This document shows positions 4,001 to 36,879 of a stretch of DNA of 64,000 nt, one piece after another. The stretch comes from Candidatus Woesearchaeota archaeon (GTDB lineage: Archaea; Nanobdellota; Nanobdellia; Woesearchaeales; GW2011-AR15). Where the stretch lies: positions 1-64,000 of the forward strand of contig JAFGJW010000001.1 in assembly GCA_016928835.1 (NCBI GenBank), written 5' to 3'. The notes below the pieces were generated by a model. That model was not told the origin of the DNA. It did not search any database and saw only the letters and a program-made list of their open reading frames with translations. The position numbers were made by a program, and so were the translations under genes. Every line of letters begins with the position of its first letter. Position 1 is the stretch's first letter.

Positions 4001-6508
4001 CTATCCACCTGTGGTACATTCATTGCTCCACTCGCCCCATAGACATCCTTCTATCGCAGTACACGAAATTTCAATAAAACAACTATCACAATTATCACCA
4101 GGGCAATATTTACATTGATTTTCATCCTCTGAATCTCTGTAACATCCCCAAGTATATGGACAATAGTCCTTGTTATTCTGAGAATCAATTGTGGTACAAC
4201 AACTATTTTTGCTGGGGGAAGCAGCATCCAGCATACAAGGTGGTTCTTGGGTTATGTCATAACAGGCTCCACCATTTTCCTCTTCTTGATAATAATAATA
4301 ACAATTAATGTTCTCTATACATCCTTCTCTTGATAGGGAGTTACAGTCTTGTTCAACACAAGCGCCATTATTACAGCCACCAGGACAATCAATACTCTCT
4401 GTTTGAGTGCAACTGTCTTGTCTGCATTCAAAAATTTTTACTTTATTTGCAGTATTGATACATTCACTCGGTTTGTGTTGAGATCTATCATAACATTCTG
4501 TTCTTTCACTACCGTCTGTCAGCCCGTATGTTCGACAGGAGCCATATCCACAACCATAGCTGGCAGGAACACAAGAGCCGCCCCAATAATCAAAGCACCA
4601 TTGACATGTTTGATCATTCTCGCATTGTTGAATTTTATAGGTATATGGATCTACTTCTGCGGTTATTGATTGTGCTGGAATATTATGCTGGCTGCAGGTT
4701 ATTAATTCAGTGGGATCACCTTCTCCCAACTCCCGAATTATTCCTCTCGGAGCGCATATAGCTTCATCAACCCTGAACTGTCTGAATAATTGAGAACTAG
4801 TTGGAGTTATTGAATGTCTTTCACATCCTTCAGGACAATTCCCTGGATCACATCCAATGCACGTATATTGATTGCATGTTGGCTCAAGATCGTCTTCATC
4901 TGGTATTCCATCGTTGTCATCATCTGGGTCAATATTATTGCCTGCACCATCGTTATCTGTGTCTTCTTGTTCATTCTCGTTCAATGGGAAGGCATCTAAT
5001 CCATCAATTACTGTGTCTCCATCACTGTCTGGCTCAACAGGACTCAGGCCTAGCACAACTTCAATGCCATCCAATAAATAATCATCATCACTATCTTCAT
5101 CTGTCGGGTCGGTGCCATAGCCATATTCATCGATATTGCTAAGATAGTCATTATCACCATCCTGTGCTGAATCATCATTTAAAGGATCTAGGCCAAATAA
5201 TATCTCCCAGCCGTCAGGCATTCCATCGCCATCTGTGTCTGGATTCAGTGCATTGGTGTACCACTGCACCTCAACATAATCAGAAGCGCCGTCATCATCA
5301 CTGTCCTCATCTTTTGGATCTGTGCCAAAATCATACTCTCTATTATTTGGCAAACCATCCCCATCATTATCTTGATTTGCACCAGGTGAATCAGCATCTT
5401 CTAAATCGAAATTATGCTCTCTTTCCCATGAATCTGGAAAACTATCATCATCCCTGTCATCCGGGTATTCATCCAAAGCATTTATCCTGCCGTCTTTATC
5501 ATAATCAACGTACGGAGAAATCTCTCCGCCCTCAAGGCCGGTTGAAATCAGGAAAGGTATGCCAGTAACATGCCCCAAAGGTGTAAAAACTTCTCCTCTT
5601 CCTATGCCGAAACTAGACGTCATTTTCTGGCATATCTCGCTCAACTTTCTCTCATTGCTGTAATTAGTGCTTATCTCGTCACCTGCATTAAGGTGACTGA
5701 AATGCCACATGATTATCGGGTCAACTTTTACCCTCCTCTCATTCCCATGAGGCTCTTGCCTAAAACTTGAAAACTCCAGACTTAGGCACTTGGGGATATA
5801 TTCAAAATAGCGGAAGCTGTTCAGGCTGGCTTCTGTCCTGAACCTAAGCTTTATTGTTGTCTTATCCTCATAGGGGTTATAAGAAAATTCCCTTTCAATC
5901 TCTGTTGGTGCTATCTTGCGCAGAGCTTCGCTATACTCTCGCAGCTCTTCATCAAATTTATCTTGATCTAGGCTGCCGTTCAGCTCTGTCACTATCTCTC
6001 TTACAAAAGCAGGCACTGTGCAATCCATATCCAGCTCTTTGACATTTATATCTGCACCATTGTCTGTCCCAATAAACCTGAGCTCAGCTTTATTGTTCAT
6101 GTTCTTTACACAAACATAATGCGGGGAATTTATGTCAAGTTCATTTAATTTAAAGCTATGGATTATCTCAATGCCCTTCATTAAAAATACATTCTCTTTT
6201 ACATCACGAAACTCATCATTAAGAAAAGGTGATTCCTGGAAAGATAATGCCTCATAACTCTTGCTTTGGTCAAAGATATAGAGCGCAGTAATGTCTGGTG
6301 GGAAAAAAGCGCTTATGTCAGTTGTCTTCTCCCTGCTGTTTTTGACATTGTTGACTGCGTTCCTAAGTTCTATCTCAAAATCAAAGAAAGAGGAATCTAT
6401 ATTCTCCTTATTCAGCATTGTAATAGCCTTAATGATCACTGTTAAAGTAATTACTATCACAATGGCAATCATTATAGGGATAAGAATATTTGTCTGCCCC
6501 TTTTTCAT
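4001..6508 (-). CDS. Membrane-anchored protein with thrombospondin type 3-like calcium repeats and Cys-rich tail
   Basis: 835 residues. An N-terminal MKKGQTN plus a long hydrophobic segment (~8-32) looks like a class III (pilin-type) signal or anchor. Residues ~45-325 are a mixed domain without a recognised family. Residues ~334-541 hold a run of DxDxDGxxD motifs (YDKDGRIN, NDGDGLPN, TDGDGMPDGW, SDGDTVIDG, DDDNDGIPDEDD), the calcium-binding pattern of thrombospondin type 3 repeats. Residues ~544-835 are rich in paired cysteines. An outward-facing calcium-stabilised stalk with a disulfide-rich end is likely. It is transcribed against its neighbours. Confidence 0.8.
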   Translation of the reverse strand: MKKGQTNILIPIMIAIVIVITLTVIIKAITMLNKENIDSSFFDFEIELRNAVNNVKNSREKTTDISAFFPPDITALYIFDQSKSYEALSFQESPFLNDEFRDVKENVFLMKGIEIIHSFKLNELDINSPHYVCVKNMNNKAELRFIGTDNGADINVKELDMDCTVPAFVREIVTELNGSLDQDKFDEELREYSEALRKIAPTEIEREFSYNPYEDKTTIKLRFRTEASLNSFRYFEYIPKCLSLEFSSFRQEPHGNERRVKVDPIIMWHFSHLNAGDEISTNYSNERKLSEICQKMTSSFGIGRGEVFTPLGHVTGIPFLISTGLEGGEISPYVDYDKDGRINALDEYPDDRDDDSFPDSWEREHNFDLEDADSPGANQDNDGDGLPNNREYDFGTDPKDEDSDDDGASDYVEVQWYTNALNPDTDGDGMPDGWEILFGLDPLNDDSAQDGDNDYLSNIDEYGYGTDPTDEDSDDDYLLDGIEVVLGLSPVEPDSDGDTVIDGLDAFPLNENEQEDTDNDGAGNNIDPDDDNDGIPDEDDLEPTCNQYTCIGCDPGNCPEGCERHSITPTSSQLFRQFRVDEAICAPRGIIRELGEGDPTELITCSQHNIPAQSITAEVDPYTYKIQQCENDQTCQWCFDYWGGSCVPASYGCGYGSCRTYGLTDGSERTECYDRSQHKPSECINTANKVKIFECRQDSCTQTESIDCPGGCNNGACVEQDCNSLSREGCIENINCYYYYQEEENGGACYDITQEPPCMLDAASPSKNSCCTTIDSQNNKDYCPYTWGCYRDSEDENQCKYCPGDNCDSCFIEISCTAIEGCLWGEWSNECTTGG

Positions 6509-7364: not shown

Positions 7365-7628
7365 ATGAAGAAGGCTCAAGGTATCTCAATTAATGTAATA
7401 ATTGTAGCTGCGATTGCTCTTGTTGTAATGATAATATTGGTGTTAATTTTTACTACTAACATCAGGAACTGGAGGGAGTCATCACAGGCATGTGCCAGTC
7501 TGGGCGGTGTCTGTGTAGAGAGAGCAACAGACTGCACCGGAGAATATGCTAAGATAATTGAGGGTTCATGTCCTGGAGAAGACAAGGAAGATCCTAGAGA
7601 TGACGGGTATTGCTGTTATAGAACATGA
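7365..7628 (+). CDS. Pilin-like protein, class III signal
   Basis: 87 residues. MKKAQGISINVIIVAAIALVV is a typical archaeal prepilin N-terminus: two lysines, a Gly cleavage position, then a hydrophobic helix (~10-29). The mature part is short, with four cysteines. A start eight codons upstream is rejected because the MKKAQG signal is conserved among neighbours. TATA-like TTTTATAAACC lies about 45 bases upstream. First gene of a run to 18447; its stop overlaps the next start (ATGA). Confidence 0.7.
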   Translation: MKKAQGISINVIIVAAIALVVMIILVLIFTTNIRNWRESSQACASLGGVCVERATDCTGEYAKIIEGSCPGEDKEDPRDDGYCCYRT

Positions 7629-7894
7629 AAAAAAAAGGCGTCTCGCTGTCACTTAATGCGATTGTAATAGCGGCAATTGCATTAATCGTTCTAGTGGTTC
7701 TTGTATATATATTTACTACCAGAAGCAGGGATTTTGTTTGGGGGACAAGAAATTGCATAGGCCAAGGCGGAGAATGTAAGAATGGATGCGACAGCAGCTA
7801 TGAAGTTGAGTACTCTGGCACCAACTGCGCAGATTTAAATCCAGATGAGCCAAATTGTTGCGTGCCTATGCTTGAAGGTCCGCAGGCCACATAA
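7625..7894 (+). CDS. Pilin-like protein, class III signal
   Basis: 89 residues, overlapping the previous gene by four bases. MKKKGVSLSLNAIVIAAIALIV is a second prepilin-type N-terminus, clearly related to the gene before it (same IxxNxIxxAAIALxV helix), followed by a soluble part with five cysteines (NCIGQGGECKNGC, NCCVPM). A tandem pair of small pilins or minor pilins is likely. Confidence 0.7.
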   Translation: MKKKGVSLSLNAIVIAAIALIVLVVLVYIFTTRSRDFVWGTRNCIGQGGECKNGCDSSYEVEYSGTNCADLNPDEPNCCVPMLEGPQAT

Positions 7895-7942
7895 ACTTAT
7901 TCTCCGAAAAATATATATACTCTTATACAGATAGGGTAACTT

Positions 7943-8074
7943 ATGAAAAAAAGGGGTTTTGCTTTTACAGTAAATCATATGGCGACATTACTCATCGTGG
8001 GATTTTTACTTGCATTTCTCATCTATTTTGTTGTTCAAACCGCCTATCATTCAAGAGCAATGACTCTCGGCTGA
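7943..8074 (+). CDS. Very small single-span membrane protein
   Basis: 43 residues. MKKRGFAFTVNHMATLLIVGFLLAFLIYFVV gives a basic start and one membrane helix, with 12 residues after it. The N-terminal KKRGF and the position between pilin-like genes suggest a minor pilin-like or assembly peptide. A TATA-like AAAATATATATACTC lies about 35 bases upstream, so the gene may also start its own transcript. Confidence 0.6.
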   Translation: MKKRGFAFTVNHMATLLIVGFLLAFLIYFVVQTAYHSRAMTLG

Positions 8075-8075
8075 A

Positions 8076-8948
8076 ATGAAATTGATAACCTCAAAAAAAG
8101 GGATGGAGTTCACAACATTTCATCTTGGAACATTGATTATGGTAATCATTGGGATAATTATAGTAATATTCCTGATATGGAAATGGAATTTGAGCCAGGG
8201 CAAGTGTATGGCAGCAAGCAAAGAACTGTGCATGGCGAGTGTTCTGGCAAATTCAAAAGCAAGGGTTCCTGTTGTTAATGATGAGATCTATGCTGTGAAC
8301 TGCCCTACCAAATATCTTACAATCGGACTGGAGGGATATGAAGAGGAGACAACAGAATGTAAAGGAGGAGATGACAAATATTTCAAAGAATGCGGCAAAC
8401 CAAACCAGGCAGGAACATCACAGTTCAATAAATGCTTTTTCAACAAGACAAATGAGTTAATTGCCAGCAGGATATTTAATTGCTGGGAGCAGTTTGGGGC
8501 AGGAAATCTGAAGGTATTCAGCGAATATGAGGTTGATAGGCAATGCATTGTTTGCGAGATAATTGAATTTTCAGAAGAGGCAAGAGCAGCATACGGTGGA
8601 GAGTATATTGGTGCGAGATATCCTCAATATAGCCTTGACGAGTATATGAGAACTACTAAACCATCAGCAGCTTATACCGCCAGCTATTATGAATTAACAG
8701 TAGACGCATTGGACGTGTTCCAGCCACAGATTTATGACTATGATATGCAAGGCAGTTATGCGGTCTTATTTGTTGCTGTCAACCAGGCCCATGTTCAAGA
8801 TATGCTGGGAGATGCGTGGAGCTGGTTCCAAGACAAGGTTCCGTGGCTTCTAGGCAGATCAAGCGACGAACCAGAAATATTGTTTGTGAATGCCCTGCAT
8901 TTTGTTCCCCAGGAAGATGTCCAGAATATGTGTGACAAGTTAATATGA
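8076..8948 (+). CDS. Pilin-like membrane-anchored protein with soluble domain
   Basis: 290 residues. SKKGMEF followed by a hydrophobic helix (~16-36) is the same N-terminal design as the smaller neighbours, here with a ~250-residue outer domain containing nine or more cysteines (KLCMAS-like start, CEIIEF, NMCDKL end). No family recognised. Begins two bases after the previous stop and overlaps the next gene by four bases, so it is translated as part of an operon. Confidence 0.7.
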   Translation: MKLITSKKGMEFTTFHLGTLIMVIIGIIIVIFLIWKWNLSQGKCMAASKELCMASVLANSKARVPVVNDEIYAVNCPTKYLTIGLEGYEEETTECKGGDDKYFKECGKPNQAGTSQFNKCFFNKTNELIASRIFNCWEQFGAGNLKVFSEYEVDRQCIVCEIIEFSEEARAAYGGEYIGARYPQYSLDEYMRTTKPSAAYTASYYELTVDALDVFQPQIYDYDMQGSYAVLFVAVNQAHVQDMLGDAWSWFQDKVPWLLGRSSDEPEILFVNALHFVPQEDVQNMCDKLI

Positions 8949-9079
8949 AAAATATAAAAGCACAGGTATCTAAATCAATTGTGACAATAGTAGTTTTCCT
9001 TATCGGACTGCTTGTGGTCATAGTAATCGCAGCTTTGGCAGCACAGAGAATATTTTCACTATCTGGTAAGGTATTTTAA
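8945..9079 (+). CDS. Very small single-span membrane protein
   Basis: 44 residues, ATGA overlap with the previous gene. MKNIKAQVSKSIVTIVVFLIGLLVVIVIAALAAQRIF is basic then one long hydrophobic helix, with only about 10 residues after it. One base separates its stop from the following 1016-residue gene. Likely a structural or assembly peptide of the same complex. Confidence 0.6.
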   Translation: MKNIKAQVSKSIVTIVVFLIGLLVVIVIAALAAQRIFSLSGKVF

Positions 9080-9080
9080 A

Positions 9081-12000
9081 ATGAATAAAAAATTAAAACA
9101 GGGAATATTGGTCACTACAAAGCTAGTTAATCTAATTTTGGCAATCGCAGTAATATTTGGTTCAGTATATTTTATGGGACAGACCCTCTGGCCCTCATTT
9201 AAGGCTTTTATGGGTGTTTCAGACCCAAGTGTTTTTGATTCGTCTATTGAGCGTTATTCAGAGATGGGTGCTGAGCATGCAGAGGCAATGGATTCTATTA
9301 ATGCTTTGCTTTATGCGATAAATGTATTGGCTTGGGCTGATGAATCTGGATACTCAGAAACTGTGCCTGGAACAACTGACGAAAGAGAGTATATTGGGCA
9401 GTATAGTGAGTTAGAGAGAACTTTTGGGGATAAGATTGTTAAGGCGACAGCAATAGATAGTGAGACAGTAGGTTTAAGAGGCTCCACTACCCAGGTTGCC
9501 TACGAACTTGCAAAATTAATTGTTGAATGCCGCTATATATATGAAGATCTCGGTTATTCTAATACTAGATGTTTCACAGTTGACACAAACGGATTGCAAG
9601 GGCATATTACCGAGACAGAGTTAATAGACGGCATACATGCGTATAAAGACAGCGCAGAGTGCGAGGGGAATTGTGAATGGACCTGCGATGAATTGACTGG
9701 AGAAGGTTGGTTTTTGTGGAACATATTCAACGCAAAGAATCTCAGGATTGAGATAAATGGCGGCGATTATAGGGACACTGTCTCTTCTGAAGTGACTCCT
9801 TTGAGGTTGTGCGCCGATACCCATGGTTTGGATGAGATTATGATAACAGACAACTCCCAATTATGCCACACGCCCTATGAGCAGCTTGTGCTTGGATTTA
9901 AAATAGAGAATTTCAATCTTCCACAAGAAGTAATTTATGAGGGGGGGCATTTGCCAGTTGTTTCCCAAATTGCATACACTATTGATTCATGGCTGCGGGG
10001 ATTTGGTGACCCAAAATATGTTATTTACTACGGTGTCTTTCCAGAAGGGGAAGAAGAATACTGGGGATTGGCCGGATACCAAATTGCCTGGGCATCTATT
10101 TTGATTGGAGAAGGCATTGGCCTTGGAATTGATCTGCTGACTTTTGGTTTTGGTAGGTTTTTTAGCAGAGGGGCGGGAAGAGCGGCAACAGCAGTGGCGC
10201 AACAGGCAGTGGAAGAAACTGGACAGAGAGTGATTACTGAAACTGTGCAGGAAGGAACAGAGCAAGTGATCAAACAAAGTTTTAAGGAAACCATAGGCGA
10301 ATTCTTTGAAAGGATATGGTCCAGAACAGGCAGGAGGCTGTTTACGAAAAGCGTAACTAGAGCAGGGCTCCATGATGCTGCAGGCGAGGCAGCTGAAGAA
10401 GGAGTTCAAAGAATAGTGAGAAGAGCCTGTGTGGAGACAGGTGTTGAAAATGTGGATGAGGTTGTTGATGCTGCTAGAGGGCTGTATAGGGATGCAGCAC
10501 ATGCTTCACTTGATTTTCTAGATGAAGTAGAAGACCCGATTCGGGAAGGCTTTGTGGATGCCTCTGGGCGCTTGACAAGAGAAGGAAGAGAGCGGGCATT
10601 GACACGTATGACAGATTATTTTGATGATGCACTTGTACATGATCCAGTTCTTCGTGGAACACTTCAAGACGCACTTGGCCAGAATTTTGACAGAGTTATT
10701 GTAAATCTGCAGAGGGAAATCACAGACGGCTTCCTAAGCAGAATCGGCAGACTCTCCAGGATTCAGATGTTCTTTAGGAGAGCTAGAAGAGGCATGCTTA
10801 CTTTAGCACAGGTATTTGATCCTGAACTGCCACAAGACCAGCTGGAGAGGGCAGTCAGGGGATTCATGGATGATGGGTTGGATCATCTGAGATATATGCA
10901 TGACCAGGACCTAATTAGGTTTATGGCCAACCAGCAGCCGGCGATAGACTTATTTATGGATCGAGGTTCTGGAGAATTTATCAGAGATGCTACAGAAGGG
11001 ATATTAATTGATAATGTTGATGACTTCTCAAGAGCATTTGACGACGGTATCCGCAATGCATTGAGAGAGCAGTCTGTGGATACCTTTATTGACTTACCAG
11101 CCAGATACACAAGAGTGATTACGGGGGAGAGGATGTTGAGAATATCAAAAGGCATATATGGTTTTGCAACTCCAAGAATCCTTCCTACGAATCCTAGGGC
11201 TGTCAGAAGACTTGCACTATGGACTACGGCATATTATCTTGTGTCAAGAGTCGAGAGCATGCATGCCAAGTTCGTGCCAGTAGGACCGAATGCAATAGGG
11301 TTTAGGACACCTTATGACGCTACAGTTATCTATGATGATACTTATACAAGAGAATTAGACTTGGAGACACAAGAGGACTATCTGAATTTCTTCAGGCACT
11401 ATGCAGATTATTATTACTGGGAAAGAGCAAGGGCTGAAGAAGGCCTAACTGAAGAAGAGGAAGAAGGCGGGGAAGAATCCCAGGAAGTAAGTGCTCCCCC
11501 AAGAGAATACCAATATTATTACGGGCTTCTGCCGCTCGTAGATAAATATTATATTGCTCTGATAAAGGATATGCATGACGACATACTTGGCACTGGCTGG
11601 AGGCCATTTGACCAGCTCCCGCAGAGATTTCATTTAGTCAGTCCATGCAAGGCAGATATTTTAATGAAGGTTTCGAGATGCGAATGTGTTCAGAGAGACG
11701 AACCGCAAAATAACATATACCTTACAGGAAAACACTATGTTTTGAATGATGGCACAGAGATATTCTATGATCCGAATCCAGACCCAAATGAACCCCCGTT
11801 TACATATAGATTGGATGAAGAGAATCAGCCTTACAAAGAGTGTTTCCACCCGGATTGGTTCCCTCTGGATGATTACAAGGTGAATGTGAAATGCATTCAA
11901 ATAAATCCTGTTATGGATCAGACGCTTGACCCAAATTATTGTTATCATGGAAGCAACCCAGGCCATGAAACCATGAAATTTTTAACAACTGTTGTTGAAT

Positions 12001-12131
12001 TCGCAGTTCCTGTTGTAGTAGGCATATTCTGCCAGCCGTGTGCCATTCCAATTGGTTTTGCAGTCGGACTGGCAGGGGAATCTCTAAAAGCTTATGTAGA
12101 CACACAACACAGGTGGCCGCACCATAGCTAG
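9081..12131 (+). CDS. Large membrane-anchored protein of the pilin-like operon, unknown family
   Basis: 1016 residues. N-terminal membrane helix (~12-34), a possible amphipathic or membrane segment at ~335-362 (IAWASILIGEGIGLGIDLL), a long Arg/Glu-rich helical region (~370-700), a Glu-rich loop near 795-810, and a C-terminal hydrophobic segment (~975-1000, VVEFAVPVVVGIFC). Cysteines cluster near 190-205 and 860-990. I recognise no family. Its size and central place among small pilin-like proteins suggest a scaffold or adhesin of the surface structure. Confidence 0.75.
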   Translation: MNKKLKQGILVTTKLVNLILAIAVIFGSVYFMGQTLWPSFKAFMGVSDPSVFDSSIERYSEMGAEHAEAMDSINALLYAINVLAWADESGYSETVPGTTDEREYIGQYSELERTFGDKIVKATAIDSETVGLRGSTTQVAYELAKLIVECRYIYEDLGYSNTRCFTVDTNGLQGHITETELIDGIHAYKDSAECEGNCEWTCDELTGEGWFLWNIFNAKNLRIEINGGDYRDTVSSEVTPLRLCADTHGLDEIMITDNSQLCHTPYEQLVLGFKIENFNLPQEVIYEGGHLPVVSQIAYTIDSWLRGFGDPKYVIYYGVFPEGEEEYWGLAGYQIAWASILIGEGIGLGIDLLTFGFGRFFSRGAGRAATAVAQQAVEETGQRVITETVQEGTEQVIKQSFKETIGEFFERIWSRTGRRLFTKSVTRAGLHDAAGEAAEEGVQRIVRRACVETGVENVDEVVDAARGLYRDAAHASLDFLDEVEDPIREGFVDASGRLTREGRERALTRMTDYFDDALVHDPVLRGTLQDALGQNFDRVIVNLQREITDGFLSRIGRLSRIQMFFRRARRGMLTLAQVFDPELPQDQLERAVRGFMDDGLDHLRYMHDQDLIRFMANQQPAIDLFMDRGSGEFIRDATEGILIDNVDDFSRAFDDGIRNALREQSVDTFIDLPARYTRVITGERMLRISKGIYGFATPRILPTNPRAVRRLALWTTAYYLVSRVESMHAKFVPVGPNAIGFRTPYDATVIYDDTYTRELDLETQEDYLNFFRHYADYYYWERARAEEGLTEEEEEGGEESQEVSAPPREYQYYYGLLPLVDKYYIALIKDMHDDILGTGWRPFDQLPQRFHLVSPCKADILMKVSRCECVQRDEPQNNIYLTGKHYVLNDGTEIFYDPNPDPNEPPFTYRLDEENQPYKECFHPDWFPLDDYKVNVKCIQINPVMDQTLDPNYCYHGSNPGHETMKFLTTVVEFAVPVVVGIFCQPCAIPIGFAVGLAGESLKAYVDTQHRWPHHS

Positions 12132-12140
12132 GTGATTATA

Positions 12141-12893
12141 ATGTCAAAAAAAATTCCTAAGAACATAATATACATCGGAACAGGCGCACTTATATTAATA
12201 ATCTTCATCGTACTATTGATATCTCTGCCTAGGAAAAAGGTCGAGGGCCACAAATATTTTACAACCGAGCCAGCAACTTGGATAGAAAGCGATCCAGTGA
12301 CAGAAGAGGATGATGTAAAAATTGATGTAATGAAAGCGACAAGAGCAAAGGGCACAGTGGAGGTAACTCAGCATAATTATATTTATGATAATAAACTAGT
12401 CTCTTTTTTTTATCATGGTTATTACCAGGGTAAGCGATTTGATGTTAGCTATGTAGATCCAGCATATGACAATGCCTCTATAAATCTTAGCATCGAGCAG
12501 AAAAGGCTCTTACTTAAAAATTACACCAAGATACAGATAAGTAAAAGGCTTAACCCTAGTGATGGGATAATTGATGCGCTGATATTGGGAAAAGAAGAGA
12601 ACGATACCTTTGTATTTTATATCTTTGTTGATGAAGATTGGAAACAGCAGCTAGGATATACAAACATAATGTGGGGAGATGATTTTAAAGACAGAGAATC
12701 GTTGCATACCAGGCAATTTGACTTCTCACAGCAAAGCAGTGGAATCTACATAGATAAAGTTGATTATGATACAGATTGGTTCTTATCAGATATTATTAAG
12801 GGCGGGCTGATGGTTGGAGAGATTGGTACAAATATACTTGAACAGTTGTCAACTGGTTATTGGATGAATGTTACTTTTGTCTATATAAGGTGA
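12141..12893 (+). CDS. Membrane-anchored protein, unknown family
   Basis: 250 residues from ATG 12141 (GTG 12132 would add three). MSKKIPKNIIYIGTGALILIIFIVLLIS gives an N-terminal anchor; the rest is a soluble domain rich in Asp, Tyr and Lys without cysteine clusters. Follows the large gene after nine bases. No family recognised; presumed component of the same surface assembly. Confidence 0.65.
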   Translation: MSKKIPKNIIYIGTGALILIIFIVLLISLPRKKVEGHKYFTTEPATWIESDPVTEEDDVKIDVMKATRAKGTVEVTQHNYIYDNKLVSFFYHGYYQGKRFDVSYVDPAYDNASINLSIEQKRLLLKNYTKIQISKRLNPSDGIIDALILGKEENDTFVFYIFVDEDWKQQLGYTNIMWGDDFKDRESLHTRQFDFSQQSSGIYIDKVDYDTDWFLSDIIKGGLMVGEIGTNILEQLSTGYWMNVTFVYIR

Positions 12894-12900
12894 GCAAATC

Positions 12901-13251
12901 ATGGCTATTAAAAAAAAGGGTATAATGGTTCCTAGTTACTTAGTCTGGTTTATAATAGCACTAATTGTCTTAGTATGTATGGTCTGGATTTGGGTTAGAT
13001 TCTTTAGTGGAGGAACAAGGACTATAGATGGCATTCAGCAACAAACAGAGCATGATGCTGAAGAATCCACTGGTTTTTTAGATGACCTATTTGGTGGATG
13101 TGAGGAAGGAGAAACTAAGTGTAATTTCCAGAGAACCCGTGTTTTGAGATGCGATTCAGAAGGAGATTGGATACCTCAACCGCCATGCGACAGAGAGACC
13201 GAGATGTGCATGGACGGCACGTGTGTTCCAAGGGGAGAGTATGAGGAATAA
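12901..13251 (+). CDS. Small membrane protein with Cys-rich outer domain
   Basis: 116 residues. MAIKKKGIMVPSYLVWFIIALIVL is a basic start plus membrane helix (~11-33); residues ~60-110 contain paired cysteines (CEEGETKC, RCDSEG, PPCDRETEMCMDGTC), a disulfide-knot pattern. Overlaps the start of the next gene by 11 bases. Confidence 0.65.
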   Translation: MAIKKKGIMVPSYLVWFIIALIVLVCMVWIWVRFFSGGTRTIDGIQQQTEHDAEESTGFLDDLFGGCEEGETKCNFQRTRVLRCDSEGDWIPQPPCDRETEMCMDGTCVPRGEYEE

Positions 13252-13762
13252 AAAGGCAGACTTGAGCTACAAAACCTTGGCAGAAGTACTTCTGTTTGTA
13301 GTTTTTTTTTTGGTCATAATCGCTCCCGCATGCACCAAAATCATTAACTTTTTTACTGGTAAACCAGAATCAGGCACAACAAGAGCTTTTCAAAACATCC
13401 TTCTGTCAGTAAATCATCTCTCTCTGGGCGAGAAAGTAATTCCTGTGTATATTGATGAAAGGCATGCTATTTTCGGCTTTAACAAAGCTGACACAAAGCC
13501 GCAAGCCTGCTTGCAGCAGGGAAATGATCCTGAAAAGAGCTGTATTTGCCTATGCTGGCATGATACGCCTTGTGAGCAGAAAACTTTCGATTGCAAATCC
13601 TTGGACAAAGACTATTTTATAAGCCCTGGTTTCACTATACCGCCCACAGGCGAGATTCAGAGTTACGTGCTAACTCTTGTTAGAGAAGATCCTCCGGCGG
13701 GCCAGACAAAACCCAGGTATACAGTTTCTATTCACAGATATTCCCCAATTGAATCTGGATAA
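13241..13762 (+). CDS. Membrane-anchored protein, unknown family
   Basis: 173 residues from ATG 13241. MRNKKADLSYKTLAEVLLFVVFFLVIIAPAC is a basic start and a membrane helix; a cluster KSCICLCWHDTPCEQKTFDC sits near residues 105-125. A longer version starting at 13223 is unlikely because it would extend back into the preceding gene. Part of the pilin-like operon. Confidence 0.65.
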   Translation: MRNKKADLSYKTLAEVLLFVVFFLVIIAPACTKIINFFTGKPESGTTRAFQNILLSVNHLSLGEKVIPVYIDERHAIFGFNKADTKPQACLQQGNDPEKSCICLCWHDTPCEQKTFDCKSLDKDYFISPGFTIPPTGEIQSYVLTLVREDPPAGQTKPRYTVSIHRYSPIESG

Positions 13763-13766
13763 AAAG

Positions 13767-14258
13767 ATGAGAGCATCTAAAAGAGGTAGCATGACATTAT
13801 GGACCTTGGTAGACTTGTTTATGTTGGCTGTTATCGTTTTAGCATTTTTATTTCAAATATGGTTAATCTCACAAAGCACCTTATTTGAGAGAAGATTTCT
13901 AGCCAGAGATATGGCCCTTTTAATTGATACAGTTTATGCCTCACCTAATAATCTTGATATCAGATACCCGCAGAACACGCTTTGGTTCTCTCTTTTATTT
14001 GAGAATAGCAAAGTTAGTGTAACAGATAAAAGGAAAGAAGATTTGCCGTTGAGTGCATCATACTATTTCACCGAAGACACAAGTATTAATTTTGTATATA
14101 AGCAATTGGACCCAATTGCTATGGTGCAAGATGAGTTTCCCAGCGTTATTATTCAGGGTGGCGAGGGACAAATCCAAGACTTGTTTGTTCCGCTTGTAAT
14201 AAGCAGGCGCAACAGCTATATTGAACCGCAAATAAAGATTGCTGTCGAGGCTACCTAA
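13767..14258 (+). CDS. Membrane-anchored protein, unknown family
   Basis: 163 residues. ATG 13767 follows the preceding stop by four bases; an upstream start at 13677 would lie wholly inside the previous gene and is rejected. SKRGSMTLWTLVDLFMLAVIVLAFLFQIWL provides the N-terminal anchor, then a mixed soluble domain (FLARDMALLIDTVYASP). The RDMALLIDT segment is reminiscent of small type II/IV pilus accessory proteins, but no assignment is safe. Confidence 0.6.
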   Translation: MRASKRGSMTLWTLVDLFMLAVIVLAFLFQIWLISQSTLFERRFLARDMALLIDTVYASPNNLDIRYPQNTLWFSLLFENSKVSVTDKRKEDLPLSASYYFTEDTSINFVYKQLDPIAMVQDEFPSVIIQGGEGQIQDLFVPLVISRRNSYIEPQIKIAVEAT

Positions 14259-14259
14259 T

Positions 14260-14784
14260 ATGCAAAAAAAAGCCCAGGCATTTCATATATTGGAGTGGAT
14301 AATTTCCAGAGTGCCATTTATTCTTGTGCTGTTTGTAACATTCTACATCTTTTTTTCCTCTCAGTTCAGTATGGGCCTTGAATCGCATGAGGTTGGCAAT
14401 CTTGTCTTTACAAAGCGTTTTCTCTATTCAGGCAATGCATTGGCCTATAGAGATCCAGAAACTGCAAGGGTATATCCTGGGATAATTGACTTTGAAAAAT
14501 TTAATAATGAGACAATGGAAGAGGCATTTTCATATGAAAAAAACTATATTGCAGCAAAATTCGAACTGGAAAACCTTGATACTGATGAGATAATTGGGAT
14601 TTATGTTAATGGAAGATGGTATAATCGATGGAGACACTATACGCAATTTGAGCAGTACGAGGGCATGGAGCTCAGGAGGTTTGTATTAATAAAAGACGGG
14701 GATAACTTGTACAAAGGCGCTCTGAAAATGGACGTTGTTGTTTCAAATATACCCAGTTATGTTAGCGAGATGGAGGAAGCATGA
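14260..14784 (+). CDS. Membrane-anchored protein, unknown family
   Basis: 174 residues from ATG 14260, one base after the previous stop. N-terminal MQKKAQAFHILEWII and hydrophobic helix (~17-36), then a soluble domain with GNLVFTKRFLYSGNALAYRD. Similar layout to its neighbours at 13767 and 14781; ATGA overlap with the next gene. Confidence 0.6.
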   Translation: MQKKAQAFHILEWIISRVPFILVLFVTFYIFFSSQFSMGLESHEVGNLVFTKRFLYSGNALAYRDPETARVYPGIIDFEKFNNETMEEAFSYEKNYIAAKFELENLDTDEIIGIYVNGRWYNRWRHYTQFEQYEGMELRRFVLIKDGDNLYKGALKMDVVVSNIPSYVSEMEEA

Positions 14785-15248
14785 AGAAAGGGTTGATATT
14801 TGCAGCATTTACAGATCTTATGGGGTGGTTGCTGCTACTCTTAGGAATATTCATCTGGATGATTATCCTTGTGTTTAACAATGAAAGAACAGAATACAGG
14901 GTCACAGAAAGAATAGATTACCTGAGTAATAAAGAAATTTTGATAAATATCCTAAGGACACCAGTAAGACAAGACATAACCTATAGTGATATATTATCAG
15001 AAGCATATCTTACAGGAGAAACAGATGCAGTTAGAGCTTATACCCAGTATCTTTTAGATGAATCTTTTTTTGGAAGCATGAGGTCTGTGTGTTGGAATAT
15101 CTACATTGATGACAGGAGATTTATTAATGAAAACTGCGGAGAGACTGTTGAAAGGGCATTTTTTGATGCTGAAACATATCTTCCTCTGCCAAACAGACAA
15201 GTTGTTAAGGTTAGGCTGGAGGTGCCAGGTTTTATTGAGCGGCTATAA
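14781..15248 (+). CDS. Membrane-anchored protein, unknown family
   Basis: 155 residues. MKKGLIFAAFTDLMGWLLLLLGIFIWMIILVF is a basic start and a membrane helix, followed by a soluble part with SNKEILINILRTPV and the pair CWNIYIDDRRFINENC. Overlaps its upstream neighbour by four bases. The ILRTPV segment also occurs in type IV pilus accessory proteins, but this is not a firm assignment. Confidence 0.6.
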   Translation: MKKGLIFAAFTDLMGWLLLLLGIFIWMIILVFNNERTEYRVTERIDYLSNKEILINILRTPVRQDITYSDILSEAYLTGETDAVRAYTQYLLDESFFGSMRSVCWNIYIDDRRFINENCGETVERAFFDAETYLPLPNRQVVKVRLEVPGFIERL

Positions 15249-15249
15249 A

Positions 15250-16332
15250 ATGGTATTTATCAAGCAGAAAAAAGCGAAAATGTTCCTGGTTATTGTACTT
15301 GCATTCATCTTTGTCTTTCCAGTACTTTTTATCTTGAACTTTGCATTAAGTACAAAGAAGAACAATTTTGAGAAGGAGATTGGAGAAACACAACTCATAT
15401 TGCTTAGAACATACGAAAAAGGTGAGAGCCCTTTGTTTTATATTGACGAGGCAGCTAGACAAATATTAAACCAACGGATTACTATGTTGCTGGATAATGG
15501 GTGGGGCGCTGGCTCTTCGTGCGGCTCTGTTCTGGGTTACAGAATATGGCATTCAAGCACTAGTGATTGTTATCCATCTCAAAGTAGTGCGGAAAATGCA
15601 ATTGCAGCTAATTTTCAAAGAGAACTTTATAACTATTTTGATACTTATCCGGAGCCTTTACCTCATATCCAGTATGATCTCTCCTTGGAAACAGAAAACC
15701 GGCTTGAGCTAATCGGAAGAGCGCAGGAAGAGCTGAGGATAGATGTTAGTGATGACTTTGTCTTTGATTTTGAACCAAGCGAAGCAGGGGAAGTGCAACC
15801 CTCACCTACGCCAGGAGATTGTCAGCATATAGCTGAATTTGCCAAAAGGTATGCTGGTTGTCGATACTCAGAGACACCATACATTGTGGATCCAGAAAAT
15901 TGTCCAAGTTACGGGCTAACTTGTGCTATGCTTGTACATAATTCAATGTATTTTACAACAACTCAAAGGACCTGGGGCGATGGCAAATTTATATGCAATG
16001 ATGATTCATTTGTTTATAGATTTAGCACATTATCTGAACTGCAACCAGGTGATGCGGCTGCTGCAATATCTCGTCATCCTTTAGGTCATGCTCTTTTATA
16101 TGTGGGCAGAGGGTATGTAACACCTGATACTTTAGTTTATTGGGTATGCCATAGTTCATATAATCCTGCACCAGATGATTCTAATGCGGATTACATCTTC
16201 ATTCATTCAACAGGAACTGCAGGTGTTGCTTATAGCTCTCATACAGAACTATTTAGGGAATTTAACCCGAGTGCTTCCTTAAGTCTTGTAAGCTTTTGTA
16301 GACACAGGGACTGTGTTCCTGCGGAGGGTTAA
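15250..16332 (+). CDS. Membrane-anchored protein with NlpC/P60-like C-terminal domain
   Basis: 360 residues from ATG 15250 (the first 48 residues of the longest frame overlap the previous gene and are rejected). N-terminal helix at ~10-33. Residues ~190-350 carry features of the NlpC/P60-CHAP papain-like fold: YGLTCAMLV with Cys225 at the nucleophile position, ELQPGD, and GHALLYVG with His280. Family members cleave peptidoglycan peptides or act on other amide bonds; in an archaeon a role in pilus maturation or action on neighbouring bacterial walls is inferred. Fold assignment is from motif pattern only. Confidence 0.55.
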   Translation: MVFIKQKKAKMFLVIVLAFIFVFPVLFILNFALSTKKNNFEKEIGETQLILLRTYEKGESPLFYIDEAARQILNQRITMLLDNGWGAGSSCGSVLGYRIWHSSTSDCYPSQSSAENAIAANFQRELYNYFDTYPEPLPHIQYDLSLETENRLELIGRAQEELRIDVSDDFVFDFEPSEAGEVQPSPTPGDCQHIAEFAKRYAGCRYSETPYIVDPENCPSYGLTCAMLVHNSMYFTTTQRTWGDGKFICNDDSFVYRFSTLSELQPGDAAAAISRHPLGHALLYVGRGYVTPDTLVYWVCHSSYNPAPDDSNADYIFIHSTGTAGVAYSSHTELFREFNPSASLSLVSFCRHRDCVPAEG

Positions 16333-16335
16333 CCA

Positions 16336-18447
16336 ATGAAATATAAAATATGTCTCCTATTTTTCCTTTATATGGTAGCAATTGTCTCTGCTGAAGAATC
16401 TATCTTAATATCGACATATTATAATAATAACACCTTTGAAATAACCTCTCTTCAAATAATAACAAAGAATGCCTATTACAACTCCTTCTATGCTGAAAAT
16501 CTGATAAAAGATAAACTCGAGTACAAATTTTATTTTTATGACGGGGGGGGAAATGCCTTGCTAACAAAAAATCCAGATTTTTCATTTAATACTATAATTA
16601 GATACGATCAAAACATTGCACAAATGGCTATTGCAGAAGATAACCAAATAATCCACCTGAGGAATCTTTCCTTCTGTAATTATAATAACATTTGCGAGTA
16701 TTGTGACTCAACCAATTGTACAAGTATTGAAAATGCTCTCATTTGCACTGATTGTGCTGTTAGTGGTAAGGACAATTTTTGTAATGTTGTTGATGATGGT
16801 ATATGTGACCCAGATTGTATTAGCCAATATGAGTGTGGCCCAGATTGTGGAAATGATTGTATTGAAAGTCAATTTTTCTTAACTAATTGTGATGACTATA
16901 ATGGCACAATATGCACTTCACAACAAAAATGTACTGGAGGCGTCATATATATATCCAACTCCAAAGAAATGTGTTGCGTAAATGGAGTTTGTGAGAACAC
17001 CCAAAAAATAGCAGCAAAAGAGGATAATACTCTGTTACAAGAAGAGAAAAAAAGTTACACTTGGATTTTTGTTGTTCTTGCGTCAATAATTGTTCTAACT
17101 GTATCGATATATTTCATTAAAAAGAAAAACTTAATTGTGGTTTCTTTGTTTGCAGTTGTTGTTTTATCCTCAGGCTTGGTTTTAATTTTCTCCCAAACTA
17201 ATCAAAGTAAGATTACGGGATACGTTCCAGCAGGGAATCCAGTTGGAAACATGCTTTCACGTACAACACCTTATTATACACCTATAGATACCGACTGGCC
17301 AAATTGGTATGCAGGAGAGAGCATAGATCTTCCATCAATAGAATATTGTAGGATTTACAGAGATCTCGGAAGCTTTTATGCAAATGTCAGATGCCAGGGA
17401 AGTGGTGTTGCTGATTTCAATGGTGTTTTAAAAGTCTGCAGATATTATTCCATTAAAACTTCAAAAGAAGCAAGTGAAGCTGATTGTTATCATGACCCTG
17501 AATTTAATAGGGGTAGGACAGCCAGCGGCACTAATCCGACACCAAGAATAACCGTAGCTTGTCCTCCAGAGTTAGATTTTGGAACTGAAATTTATATTGA
17601 TTTTGGTGAGCATGACTGGACTGGATGTTTTATATGTGAAGATAGGGGCGGAGCAATAAAAATATCCGATGGTTCAGATGGGTTAATTCCAGGGCAATAT
17701 CACTTTGATGTATATGTTGGTGTGGGTGAACAAGCCCTTCAAAGGCATCCTCTTCCAGATTATGCAAATGTCTACCTTGGATGTGGCGGAGTAGAGCCAA
17801 GACCTATCGATGATGCTGGCGACGATTCACCTACACCATCATTGCCTGACACTTCTCCTCCAGATGCAGCACCTCCTGAAATGACTGTGCCAGATGAAAT
17901 TGTAAGGGGAGAACAGCTCGGCTATTATTATCTTAATCCGTCATTCAGAGTTGGGTTGGATATTGATATCAATAAAATAGATGAAGTAACCGCAGAGGCA
18001 AGGCAATTAGTTGAATGGGCAGAGTCTCAATTAAGCTTGACTGAAGAAGATATCCAGGATTATCTCGATTCAAATAATTATGATGATTGGGCTATTGGAT
18101 ACTGTGATGTGTTTTCAGAAAATGATGAGCAATGTTTTGATGAGGGAAAAATAGGTTTTCTTGAGTCTGGCTTTTTTGCCATGAATTGTCGCCCTTGCCC
18201 TACTACCTGTGCTGAATATAGAAAAGAAGATTTGTGCAATCGTGATCCATGTAATTTGGATTGTGTATGGAATACTCAGCAATGTGTTTCGAAATCCTCA
18301 GTCGCTCTCGACTCTTACACAGTAAGATTCTGCGTTAATCTGGGCTCAACTATTTATGCTTATGAGCAGGCAACAAACCAATATACAGAAAAACCAGTGA
18401 CTCTGAAATTTGCCATATATTTCCCTAATCTTGCCCAGACCTATTGA
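16336..18447 (+). CDS. Cys-rich secreted protein with central membrane hairpin
   Basis: 703 residues. A Sec-type signal peptide (~1-18, cleavage near VSA), a first outer domain, a cysteine-dense stretch (~108-225: CNYNNICEYC, CNVVDDGICDPDC, CGPDCGNDC), two membrane helices (~240-262 and ~266-286), then a second domain with a Pro-rich linker near 495-525 and a cysteine-rich end (CRPCPTTC, CNRDPCNLDC). The DGICDPDC pattern recalls Notch/LNR-like calcium-binding disulfide modules. Last gene of the pilin-like run. Confidence 0.7.
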   Translation: MKYKICLLFFLYMVAIVSAEESILISTYYNNNTFEITSLQIITKNAYYNSFYAENLIKDKLEYKFYFYDGGGNALLTKNPDFSFNTIIRYDQNIAQMAIAEDNQIIHLRNLSFCNYNNICEYCDSTNCTSIENALICTDCAVSGKDNFCNVVDDGICDPDCISQYECGPDCGNDCIESQFFLTNCDDYNGTICTSQQKCTGGVIYISNSKEMCCVNGVCENTQKIAAKEDNTLLQEEKKSYTWIFVVLASIIVLTVSIYFIKKKNLIVVSLFAVVVLSSGLVLIFSQTNQSKITGYVPAGNPVGNMLSRTTPYYTPIDTDWPNWYAGESIDLPSIEYCRIYRDLGSFYANVRCQGSGVADFNGVLKVCRYYSIKTSKEASEADCYHDPEFNRGRTASGTNPTPRITVACPPELDFGTEIYIDFGEHDWTGCFICEDRGGAIKISDGSDGLIPGQYHFDVYVGVGEQALQRHPLPDYANVYLGCGGVEPRPIDDAGDDSPTPSLPDTSPPDAAPPEMTVPDEIVRGEQLGYYYLNPSFRVGLDIDINKIDEVTAEARQLVEWAESQLSLTEEDIQDYLDSNNYDDWAIGYCDVFSENDEQCFDEGKIGFLESGFFAMNCRPCPTTCAEYRKEDLCNRDPCNLDCVWNTQQCVSKSSVALDSYTVRFCVNLGSTIYAYEQATNQYTEKPVTLKFAIYFPNLAQTY

Positions 18448-18532: not shown

Positions 18533-19774
18533 ATGATTAAGGTACCAGTTGAAATAATCTTCGATAAAATTAAGCAGAAGACTAATCTGTCTGATGCTGA
18601 TATTAAGGTTAAAATCAAGAAAAAACTTGACCAGCTTTCAGGTTTAATTAGCGAGGAAGGTGCTGCACATATTGTTGCCAATGAACTCGGAGTGAAATTG
18701 TTTGAGGACATTGGACAACTTCAAATTAAAAATATTCTGCCAGGCATGAGAAATGTAGAGGTTCTTGGCAAAGTCCTTCGCATATATGATATAAGAGAGT
18801 TTGAGACAGAGAATAGAAAAGGCAAGCTCGGATCTTTTGTTATTGGTGATGAAACTGGAGTTATTAGGATTTTGGCATGGAATGACAAATCCCAGATACT
18901 TGAAAAACTTAAACCAGAACAGATTGTTAAAATTGAGAATGGTTATGCCAGAGAAAACAACCGGGGGAAGACCGAGGTACATCTTGGAGACAGAAGCAAG
19001 GTGTTGGTTAATCCTGCTGGAGCTAAAGATATACAAACAGGAGGAAGAAGAAAAAATATTTCTGGGTTGCAGGAAAATGAGGATAATGTTGAGTTGCTGG
19101 GAACAATAGTCCAGGTTTTTGATCCCAGGTATTTTGAGATATGTCCAGAATGCGGAAAAAGAGTTCGAGAAAAAGAAGGGAAATGGGTTTGTGACACACA
19201 CAAAGAGATAGTGCCAAGTTATGCTTATGTACTGAATTTATTTCTTGATGATGGCACAGATAACATCCGAGTTGTTTTGTGGCGAAATCAAGCCCAAAGA
19301 CTTTTACAAAAAACAGATGAAGAAATTGTTGATTATAAAGACAAGTCTTTTGAAGAGATTAAGAATGAACTTCTTGGGAAGATTGTTAAGTTTGTCGGCA
19401 GGACTTCTAAAAATGAGATGTTTGGAAGAATAGAGTTTATTCCACAAATAGTTATTGTGAACCCAGACCCAGAAGAAGAAATAAGACGGTTAGATGAGGA
19501 AGTGAAAAAAGTGATTCAGGAGAAGCCAATGGAAGGATCTGTTGAAGAAGAAAAAGAAGATTATAGAGAGGAAGTTGATGAAGAGCAAGTAGTATCATCA
19601 ACAGAGGAGAATAATGTTCCTAGAGCAGAGAAAACAGATAAGATTGAGCCACAGCAGGCCAGCGATGATGAAGAAGAGAGTTCTACTAATACCGATGAGG
19701 ATGAAGCAGAGGAGGCACAGGACAATCTAGATGAAGAAATCCTCTCCCTTGAAGATTTGGAATCATTAGAGTGA
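18533..19774 (+). CDS. rpa: RPA-like single-stranded DNA-binding protein
   Basis: Archaeal replication protein A, binding single-stranded DNA in replication and repair. 413 residues: a helical N-terminal part (~1-62), a first OB fold (~70-160, VEVLGKVLRIYDIREF...GSFVIGDETG..RILAWN), a second OB fold (~183-300) carrying a zinc site (Cys204, Cys207, Cys220, His223), and an acidic tail (~325-413) likely to bind partner proteins. GGGGGTG upstream serves as ribosome-binding site. It is followed by a small conserved gene and radA, a recombination-replication group. Confidence 0.9.
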   Translation: MIKVPVEIIFDKIKQKTNLSDADIKVKIKKKLDQLSGLISEEGAAHIVANELGVKLFEDIGQLQIKNILPGMRNVEVLGKVLRIYDIREFETENRKGKLGSFVIGDETGVIRILAWNDKSQILEKLKPEQIVKIENGYARENNRGKTEVHLGDRSKVLVNPAGAKDIQTGGRRKNISGLQENEDNVELLGTIVQVFDPRYFEICPECGKRVREKEGKWVCDTHKEIVPSYAYVLNLFLDDGTDNIRVVLWRNQAQRLLQKTDEEIVDYKDKSFEEIKNELLGKIVKFVGRTSKNEMFGRIEFIPQIVIVNPDPEEEIRRLDEEVKKVIQEKPMEGSVEEEKEDYREEVDEEQVVSSTEENNVPRAEKTDKIEPQQASDDEEESSTNTDEDEAEEAQDNLDEEILSLEDLESLE

Positions 19775-20203: not shown

Positions 20204-20219
20204 CTTTTTGGTGGTTATT

Positions 20220-21188
20220 ATGACAAGGACAAATGAGAATTCAGCTGATGAAAAAAAGGAATTTGCAATCATGGATTTGCCAGGAGTTGGAGCTGCGACT
20301 GCAGAGAAGCTAGAATTGGCAGGATATAATGATCTTATGTCAATCGCGGTAGCTTCACCAGGAGAATTAGTAGAGACAACTGGTGTTGGAGAGAGCATTG
20401 CTAAGAGGATAATCCAAGCTGCAAGAGCTTCATTAGAGATGGGTTTTGAATCAGGTGATGAGATTTTAAAGAGAAGAGAAAATATCTTGAAGATTAAAAC
20501 GGGTTCAAATAATCTGGATGAATTGCTTGGCGGCGGAATTGAGACAAGTGCAATTACTGAGTGTTTTGGTGAATTTGGTTCTGGCAAGACCCAGATAGCT
20601 TTTGCTCTGGCTGTCATGTCACAGAAGCACGACCCAAGCTCAGTGGTTGTTTTCATTGACACTGAAAATACTTTTAGACCAGAAAGAATTGCGCAATTAG
20701 CAAAGGCTAAAGGACTTAATCCTGATAAGGTCTTGAAAAATGTTAGGGTTGCAAGAGCATACAACAGTGATCACCAGATGTTGCTGGTGGAGAAAATATC
20801 TGACTTAATAAACAAGCAAAAGCTTAATGTAAAGGTTGTGATTGTTGACTCACTTACCTCTCATTTTAGGGCTGAGTTTGTTGGTAGAGGTACGCTTGCT
20901 GAGCGGCAGCAAAAATTGAATAGACATATGCACGACCTCTTAAAACTGGCAGACAGTTATAATACTTGTGTGTATGTGACAAACCAGGTAATGTCTAGGC
21001 CCGATGTCTTCTTTGGCGATCCAACTGTAGCAATTGGTGGCCATATTGTGGCACATAACTCTACATACAGAGTTTACCTTAGAAAAGGTAAGAAAGGTAG
21101 CAGAGTTGCTAAACTTGTTGATAGTCCTTCTCTGCCTGAAAAAGAAGCTGCCTTTTTTGTGGATGCAAACGGGCTAAGAGACATATAA
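20220..21188 (+). CDS. radA: RadA recombinase
   Basis: Archaeal RecA/Rad51 homologue that forms filaments on single-stranded DNA and drives strand exchange. 322 residues from ATG 20220 (a TTG 12 bases upstream is not needed). Order: helix-hairpin-helix DNA-binding domain (~10-70, [12 protein letters not shown] and [12 protein letters not shown]), linker, ATPase core with Walker [10 protein letters not shown] and Walker [30 protein letters not shown], and TNQV loop. Length and motifs are complete; no intein, although radA often has one in archaea. Confidence 0.95.
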
Positions 21189-31993: not shown

Positions 31994-31997
31994 TAAA

Positions 31998-32363
31998 ATG
32001 GAGAATATATTTTTTAAATATGGGATAATCATTGTTGGTGCAGCAGTAATAGCACTCTTAATCAGTTTTTCTTTTAATGCATTGCACGAGACAGCAGTTG
32101 GCAATCAAGAAATGCAACAGGATTTTTCCGGGAGCGCAACAGAGCTTAAACTCGCTCTTATTCGATATTGTGATTATTGTCTCAAGCCTCAAGTGAGCCA
32201 GGATTGCTTTATTATTAATGTTAATCTAATAGGAGGAGATTTAACAATCCAGGATTTTTTGGAATTTGAGAACATTGTCTTAGGGACAGATATTACTTCT
32301 GGAAAGAGTGTAGTTAAAATTAAAAACATCAATAATTTATGCATGGTAGATAAGCTGGAATGA
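31998..32363 (+). CDS. Pilin-like membrane-anchored protein
   Basis: 121 residues, five bases after the platform gene. N-terminal helix (~8-27, IIIVGAAVIALLISFSF) then a soluble part with four cysteines (YCDYCLKPQVSQDC). Lacks an obvious KKxG signal. Overlaps the next gene by four bases. Likely a minor pilin or assembly subunit. Confidence 0.65.
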   Translation: MENIFFKYGIIIVGAAVIALLISFSFNALHETAVGNQEMQQDFSGSATELKLALIRYCDYCLKPQVSQDCFIINVNLIGGDLTIQDFLEFENIVLGTDITSGKSVVKIKNINNLCMVDKLE

Positions 32364-35172: not shown

Positions 35173-35234
35173 GTTTCAGTAACATTTATTATCCAGCTAA
35201 TATTTTAATGATGTAATCGTTTATATAATTTATT

Positions 35235-35675: not shown

Positions 35676-35686
35676 TTTTTATTACT

Positions 35687-36298: not shown

Positions 36299-36309
36299 TT
36301 CTAATACGT

Positions 36310-36876: not shown

Positions 36877-36879
36877 CTT

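Follow-up and report, generated by a model that had tools for sequence, protein, structure and literature searches.

Type IV pilus loci that carry CpaF, TadC and coiled-coil proteins (cluster 2) have been described over the breadth of the DPANN archaea (PMC11291902), and a 2016 survey of archaeal type IV pili reported nanoarchaeal ATPases for which no pilins could be recognized (PMC4858521). The attachment organelle of cultivated Nanobdellota is a cone-and-tube structure, and its proteins are not known (PMC11420986). Archaeal peptidoglycan hydrolases that kill bacteria have also been reported, together with murein-cutting domains in archaea lacking murein, prominently in Nanoarchaeota; in that survey a wall-binding domain was a requirement, and about 5% of archaeal genomes were positive (PMC12352652). 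In several metagenome-assembled genomes (MAGs) of Woesearchaeota, genes for lytic murein transglycosylases have been read as a sign of predation on bacteria (PMC9723730). In this study, we analysed a stretch of 64,000 nucleotides from a Candidatus Woesearchaeota archaeon (the window), and in it a cluster of 14 genes at positions 7365-18447, which we call g01 to g14. We put a probability of about 60% on the reading that these genes supply the subunits of the filament and of its tip in a DPANN type IV filament system, a Tad-like archaeal pilus, whose enzyme tails would open bacterial peptidoglycan on contact. What we consider new, as predicted from sequence comparison, is the combination, within one conserved operon, of a pilin-like stem and murein-cutting tails that can be swapped; the stem is kept order-wide and is tail-less in the other orders of the class. 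Our literature search, which ran without bioRxiv and most subscription journals, found no work in which the pilins and the murein hydrolases of DPANN are brought together.

The closest functional analogue is the Kil/Tad pilus of Myxococcus xanthus (PMC12075869), which we compared by description. On the one hand, its Tad-type filament, many minor pilins, short all-helical Flp-like pilins, interchangeable minor-pilin tips with variable C-terminal domains and contact-dependent killing of prey resemble what we propose here. On the other hand, it is bacterial, its tips depend on a needleless type III secretion system, and the words peptidoglycan and hydrolase are absent from the available main text of that paper. 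The Woesearchaeota transglycosylases come with no delivery machine, and pili and type IV systems go unmentioned in the available text (PMC9723730). Likewise, the available text of the hydrolase survey (PMC12352652) mentions neither pilin nor pilus, whereas the enzymes described here appear on a pilin-like stem within a conserved machine.

Organization of the cluster

The source genome (G000) has 1.53 Mb and is 95% complete, and the window lies on its contig C11. The cluster consists of 14 open reading frames (ORFs) in one direction, separated by -14 to +48 bases. All lie on the + strand (aa, amino acids; TM, transmembrane segment):

g01, 7365-7628, +: 87 aa, pilin-like, MKKAQ start followed by a TM; tandem paralogues in relatives
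g02, 7625-7894, +: 89 aa, pilin-like, paralogue of g01
g03, 7943-8074, +: 43 aa, helix-only pilin-like peptide; short ORFs at the same site in relatives
g04, 8076-8948, +: 290 aa, prepilin-like start and conserved-Cys domain; detected in other orders
g05, 8945-9079, +: 44 aa, helix-only, pilin-like; ORFs of 38-75 aa at the same site in other orders
g06, 9081-12131, +: 1016 aa, signature protein with basic start and TM, helical middle and Cys-rich C-terminal domain
g07, 12141-12893, +: 250 aa, N-terminal TM and conserved domain
g08, 12901-13251, +: 116 aa, pilin-like, small Cys domain
g09, 13241-13762, +: 174 aa, pilin-like, minor pilin candidate
g10, 13767-14258, +: 163 aa, pilin-like, minor pilin candidate
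g11, 14260-14784, +: 174 aa, pilin-like, minor pilin candidate
g12, 14781-15248, +: 155 aa, pilin-like, minor pilin candidate
g13, 15250-16332, +: 360 aa, pilin-like stem and NlpC/P60-like tail (tail about 15814-16329)
g14, 16336-18447, +: 703 aa, secreted; 3D domain at about residues 413-469

A crude motif test for a basic start followed directly by one hydrophobic segment, as in archaeal prepilins, was passed by 13 of the 14 ORFs, compared with 5 of the 49 other window ORFs of at least 100 aa. Two of these five background proteins (4001-6508 and 32360-32878) probably belong to the same system as the cluster. The archaeal prepilin type of signal is known as the class III signal; g14, the exception among the 14, has an ordinary signal peptide. 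No member of the cluster had a Pfam match above the cut-off. The tandem paralogues g01 and g02 are candidate major pilins. In alignments of nine sequences each, g04 has 25 invariant columns, 8 of them Cys, and g07 has 20. The profile of g06 drew only helical-bundle noise from the PDB, with no relative there, and Foldseek returned no match at E <= 0.001 for its poor AlphaFold model, with a mean predicted local distance difference test score (pLDDT) of 55.2. The model of g13 showed a long N-terminal helix (residues 7-82) and a small alpha/beta part at a mean pLDDT of only 50.5. Both models were set aside as support for a pilin or enzyme fold, being too poor for that use.

The original prediction for this DNA had described 14 co-directional genes, nearly all with a basic start and one membrane helix and including peptides of 43 and 44 residues and a protein of 1016 residues, and the ORF layout and the motif test bear this out. 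It had also reported many ATGA overlaps, and these shrink to a 4-base overlap of that type at 3 of the 13 junctions. Its NlpC/P60-like protein is present, but as the 13th gene rather than the last, and Pfam does not recognize it. It had no member but the last matching a known family; the 3D domain of the last gene falls just under the Pfam cut-off.

Exchangeable tails on the g13 stem

The N-terminal stem of g13 comprises about 170 residues. A profile from a stem-only alignment built without the tails (A8) matched 269 of the 337 genomes of the order (149 of the 180 good ones) and 190 of the 277 good genomes of the phylum. From these matches we hand-picked 60 loci of the order, about one or a few per family, often with longer frames and avoiding visibly contig-cut matches, and g13 was found in every one of the 60 stretches fetched. 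Fifty of these g13 proteins were scanned against Pfam (L151, L158, L166, L180, L185, L186, L191, L203, L204 and L205 were left out), and 34 of them carried a murein-cutting domain above the cut-off. These domains are of nine kinds: peptidase M23, SLT lytic transglycosylase, Amidase_2, Amidase_3, M15/VanY, M74, NlpC/P60, YkuD and 3D. Three further tails fell below the cut-off (L176, L188 and L189). Because L158, L166, L185 and L186 are only 196-298 aa long, they probably lack an enzyme, and the count would become 34 of 54. The original prediction saw one NlpC/P60-like protein but missed this order-wide exchange of murein-cutting tails.

Among the first 15 relatives, M23, NlpC/P60, GH25 or SLT was found above the cut-off in four, and DUF2272, which we take to be NlpC-like, in one. 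The secreted gene after g13 was scanned in 10 loci, and SLT, VanY, M15 or Amidase_2 was present in four; L081 and the g14 protein of L033 looked lysozyme-like by eye, lay below the cut-off and were not counted.

The tail is a feature of this order. Among the matches listed, g13 frames in other orders measure 209-309 aa and none of 23 reaches 310 aa, compared with 99 of 125 frames of at least 310 aa in this order; these lengths run from stop to stop, come from 23 of the 41 other-order genomes with a match and from 125 same-order genomes, and include some contig-cut frames. The g13 proteins of other orders are thus too short to leave room for an enzyme.

For the window itself, the g13 tail has conserved Cys and His positions in common with L033, and in a profile comparison it matched Pfam-confirmed NlpC tails over a short stretch. 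Against the PDB it retrieved two NlpC/P60 structures (E 0.0036 and 0.12) among false antibody hits of like E. The 3D region of g14 aligns with the clear 3D tail of L200, the g14 profile (A12) ranked the lytic transglycosylase MltA first, at an E of only 0.053, and in L030 a counterpart of the C-terminal part of g14 is fused to a g13 stem. These data are suggestive of a putative NlpC/P60-like enzyme in g13 and a putative 3D enzyme in g14.

The motor and the filament class

The same window contains motor genes 11 kb from the cluster, at positions 29846-38051:

29846-31993, +: TadC-like platform protein, 715 aa
31998-32363, +: one-TM protein between TadC and ATPase, 121 aa; fails the prepilin motif test
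32360-32878, +: pilin-like protein, 172 aa; passes the prepilin motif test
32875-35172, -: assembly ATPase of the CpaF/GspE/FlaI type, 765 aa; T2SSE, 56 bits
35235-35675, +: coiled-coil protein 1, 146 aa; homologues adjoin the ATPase in 5 of 6 other-order loci
35687-36298, +: coiled-coil protein 2, 203 aa; homologues adjoin the ATPase in 5 of 6 other-order loci
36310-36876, 36880-37449 and 37446-38051, -: three related membrane proteins; homologues beside the motor in 4 of 6 other-order loci

In the PDB the ATPase matched 2oap (E 1.2e-33) and CpaF (2.3e-26), and GspE, CpaF and FlaI structures all match alike. The 715-aa platform protein had no Pfam match when scanned alone; its family aligned over the N-terminal part with TadC proteins of the PF00482 type (hhalign, E 7.5e-9, probability 95.8). 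The link to the cluster comes from other orders of the class, where in all six loci compared (L208-L213) a run of g13 and genes like g04 and g09-g12 adjoins an ATPase of 760-780 aa, which an insert splits in L212, and a TadC-like protein, with RPA on the opposite side in most. The window ATPase is 50-58% identical to these other-order ATPases, compared with 24-30% for the three other type IV ATPases of the source genome. Since the other-order copies adjoin the same pilin genes at this level of identity, we regard the window ATPase as the cognate motor, and its interpretation as an unrelated PilT-like protein was rejected. The motor ATPase occurs in 141 of 147 good phylum genomes (E <= 1e-100). 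A prepilin peptidase is encoded on contig C8 of the source genome (56 bits against a cut-off of 26.5) and in 8 of the 10 family genomes.

Together, the motor linkage, the platform protein, the prepilin peptidase and the prepilin-like starts argue that, as far as sequence can tell, the cluster does not stand alone as a machine but makes up the filament and tip of a DPANN type IV filament system. The original prediction had named assignment to a known archaellum or pilus class as what would speak against it, and this has largely come about, as the CpaF/GspE/FlaI-type ATPase and the prepilin-like starts point to the type IV filament class. A machine for cell-cell contact is still the best reading, but the surface machine that the original prediction took to be complete in the cluster is not complete there, with its motor at 29846-38051 and a second pilin set on another contig.

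This motor resembles the DPANN loci of PMC11291902 in its CpaF-type ATPase, TadC-like protein and coiled-coil proteins, a likeness judged by description. In that paper FlaF and PilA are given as filament proteins of locus 1 alone, and in its section on these loci neither murein hydrolases nor the 14 genes are mentioned. The archaeal pili surveyed in PMC4858521 share the class III signal, an ATPase with TadC, several minor pilins and, in some systems, multiple conserved cysteines; DPANN, Woesearchaeota and NlpC are unmentioned in the available text.

In several genomes and loci (for example G033, G091, G129, G084, G057, G151 and L212), the motor ATPase matched in two pieces, split near residue 495, in frames of about 1260-1420 aa. 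This pattern suggests an intein at a conserved site that several lineages share. Elsewhere, a UDP-sugar dehydrogenase of the window (27085-29766) is interrupted by an intein with a LAGLIDADG-like domain, and a RadA-like ORF of 818 aa (L210:15387-17840) possibly contains one.

Conservation and neighbouring genes

The signature protein g06 is present in all 10 genomes of the family, and the gene order of the cluster is the same in 9 of 9 family relatives over the extent of their contigs. Its profile matches 22 of 371 phylum genomes. A scan of named genomes with the single g06 sequence gave no match, and the same scan with the g06 alignment gave 13 loci: Archaeon GW2011_AR15 and MAGs labelled Candidatus Woesearchaeota (6 of 13), Nanoarchaeota, Nanoarchaeia, 'archaeon' and, in one case, Aenigmatarchaeota. 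These relatives place the source genome among the DPANN archaea, probably in the order Woesearchaeales. Outside the family, 13 of 14 distinct genomes compared keep several of g01-g13 in order; the exception is the Aenigmatarchaeota locus (L077), where little was found beyond a g06-like ORF. The original prediction had named scattering of the genes in relatives as what would speak against it, and the opposite was found: because the order is kept in the family and in other families, the cluster is more than a chance arrangement. Within this conserved order, g07 is inverted in place in six of the more distant loci (L081, L082, L084, L085, L086 and L089), on the reverse strand at its usual site, a repeated event.

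A further set of genes stands directly before g01 in several other families: it encodes a large Cys-rich protein, two pilin-like proteins of about 160 aa (second in the set) and about 170 aa (last) and, between these two, A6 (340 aa) and A5 (165 aa). In the source genome this set lies on contig C20 as a second pilin set, and A6 is present in 10 of 10 family genomes. This second set (L111), with the A5 and A6 families and a secreted protein of 725 aa, adjoins two genes that by eye are SecD- and SecF-like. The window has the following neighbours:

4001-6508, -: Cys-rich prepilin-like protein, 835 aa, TSP3-type repeats; possible accessory beside the cluster (compare the large Cys-rich protein upstream of the cluster in other families)
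18533-19774, +: RPA-like OB-fold protein (Pfam), conserved downstream neighbour
20208-21188, +: RadA recombinase (Pfam Rad51, 1.4e-84), conserved downstream neighbour, also in other-order loci

RPA was found downstream of g13 in 35 of the 60 fetched loci, and many of these stretches end early.

Discussion

By analogy with type IV filaments, we propose the following mechanism. The prepilin peptidase would trim the N-termini of the subunits, and the ATPase and platform would push g01 and g02 subunits into a filament. The small proteins g03 and g05 could couple this filament to a complex of g04 and g06-g12, and g13 and g14 would present the enzyme at the contact site. The enzyme would then breach the peptidoglycan of a bacterium that serves as partner or prey and let the filament anchor, kill or feed, and it may be swapped as the wall of the target changes. 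Contact, killing and feeding are all roles that we infer.

Murein is not expected in these archaea, and therefore the likely target is a bacterial wall. The transpeptidase of penicillin-binding proteins (PBP) is absent in the source genome and in G001 and G008, and among 116 genomes of the order it turned up in only eight. Own murein is unlikely since this domain is so rare, and the explanation that the enzymes remodel it was set back on these grounds; Mur ligases were not searched for. The eight genomes with a PBP transpeptidase domain are G013, G337, G051, G142, G096, G098, G139 and G093, although murein is not expected there.

Several observations weigh against a murein-opening contact filament. 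Sixteen of the 50 scanned tails have no murein domain above the cut-off, and the close family f11 has FnIII-like or unassigned tails. In a crude regular-expression test, both motifs were intact in 5 of 12 M23 tails and in 6 of 11 SLT tails, and therefore many tails look active and some may only bind. The 50 Pfam scans contained no cell-wall-binding family, and none of the 50 g13 proteins has the catalytic plus wall-binding architecture by which PMC12352652 defines a modular weaponised peptidoglycan hydrolase. In the window itself, g13 has no Pfam match and only a weak NlpC-like resemblance, and the 3D domain of g14 scores 22.0 bits, below the cut-off of 23.8. Finally, we infer the position of g13 at the filament tip, and the poor models of g13 and g06 leave the pilin fold putative.

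A broader interpretation is tentative, and we would sooner bet against it than for it: the system could serve the entire phylum as its host-contact organelle, with one near-universal motor at its base and its tip armed in this order with exchangeable murein-cutting enzymes against bacteria. This core is also a candidate for the machinery that builds the cone-and-tube attachment organelle of cultivated Nanobdellota.

The incomplete motifs, and the tails with only FnIII, C39, PGA_cap or metallophosphatase, would also suit an adhesion pilus for archaeal hosts whose tails bind or trim archaeal surface glycans (S-layer glycans, pseudomurein) instead of bacterial murein, and the cultivated DPANN that the literature describes, as far as it was available to us, do live on archaea. 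We consider this unlikely, as the tail domains are repeatedly murein-specific (Amidase_2/3, M74, M15/VanY, SLT, GH25) with several motifs intact, and the long tails are missing in other orders. It is still less probable that the machine feeds the cell by gathering or digesting free peptidoglycan and the envelopes of dead bacteria, with no contact-dependent attack. Woesearchaeota have been proposed to degrade peptidoglycan within a scavenging and vampiristic metabolism (PMC9723730), but lineages without the tail still keep the core machine, and on a pilin stem the enzyme would stay attached to the cell or filament, which better fits a contact role. A DNA-uptake (competence) pilus, which the linkage to RPA and RadA might suggest because type IV filaments drive DNA uptake in bacteria, is very improbable, since ComEC (PF03772) was found in 0 of 100 phylum genomes and in 10 of 14 control genomes, both RPA and RadA have housekeeping roles, and the murein enzymes would go unexplained unless the DNA comes from lysed bacteria. 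A type IV secretion system, considered in view of the NlpC plus lytic enzyme pair, was also set aside, with no search aimed at a VirB4-type ATPase.

In summary, a type IV filament whose exchangeable tails would open bacterial peptidoglycan on contact would provide a delivery machine for murein hydrolases that earlier surveys gave as loose genes. The analysis also names genes, those of the pilins and of the cognate ATPase, platform and coiled-coil proteins, whose products can be sought in the attachment organelle. The hosts of uncultivated DPANN are mostly not known, the cultivated ones described live on archaea, and our analysis turns the identity of their partners into a testable, genome-based prediction: lineages with enzyme tails should meet bacteria. 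If the phylum-wide host-contact interpretation were true, the tail enzyme would be a genomic readout of the cell wall of the partner.

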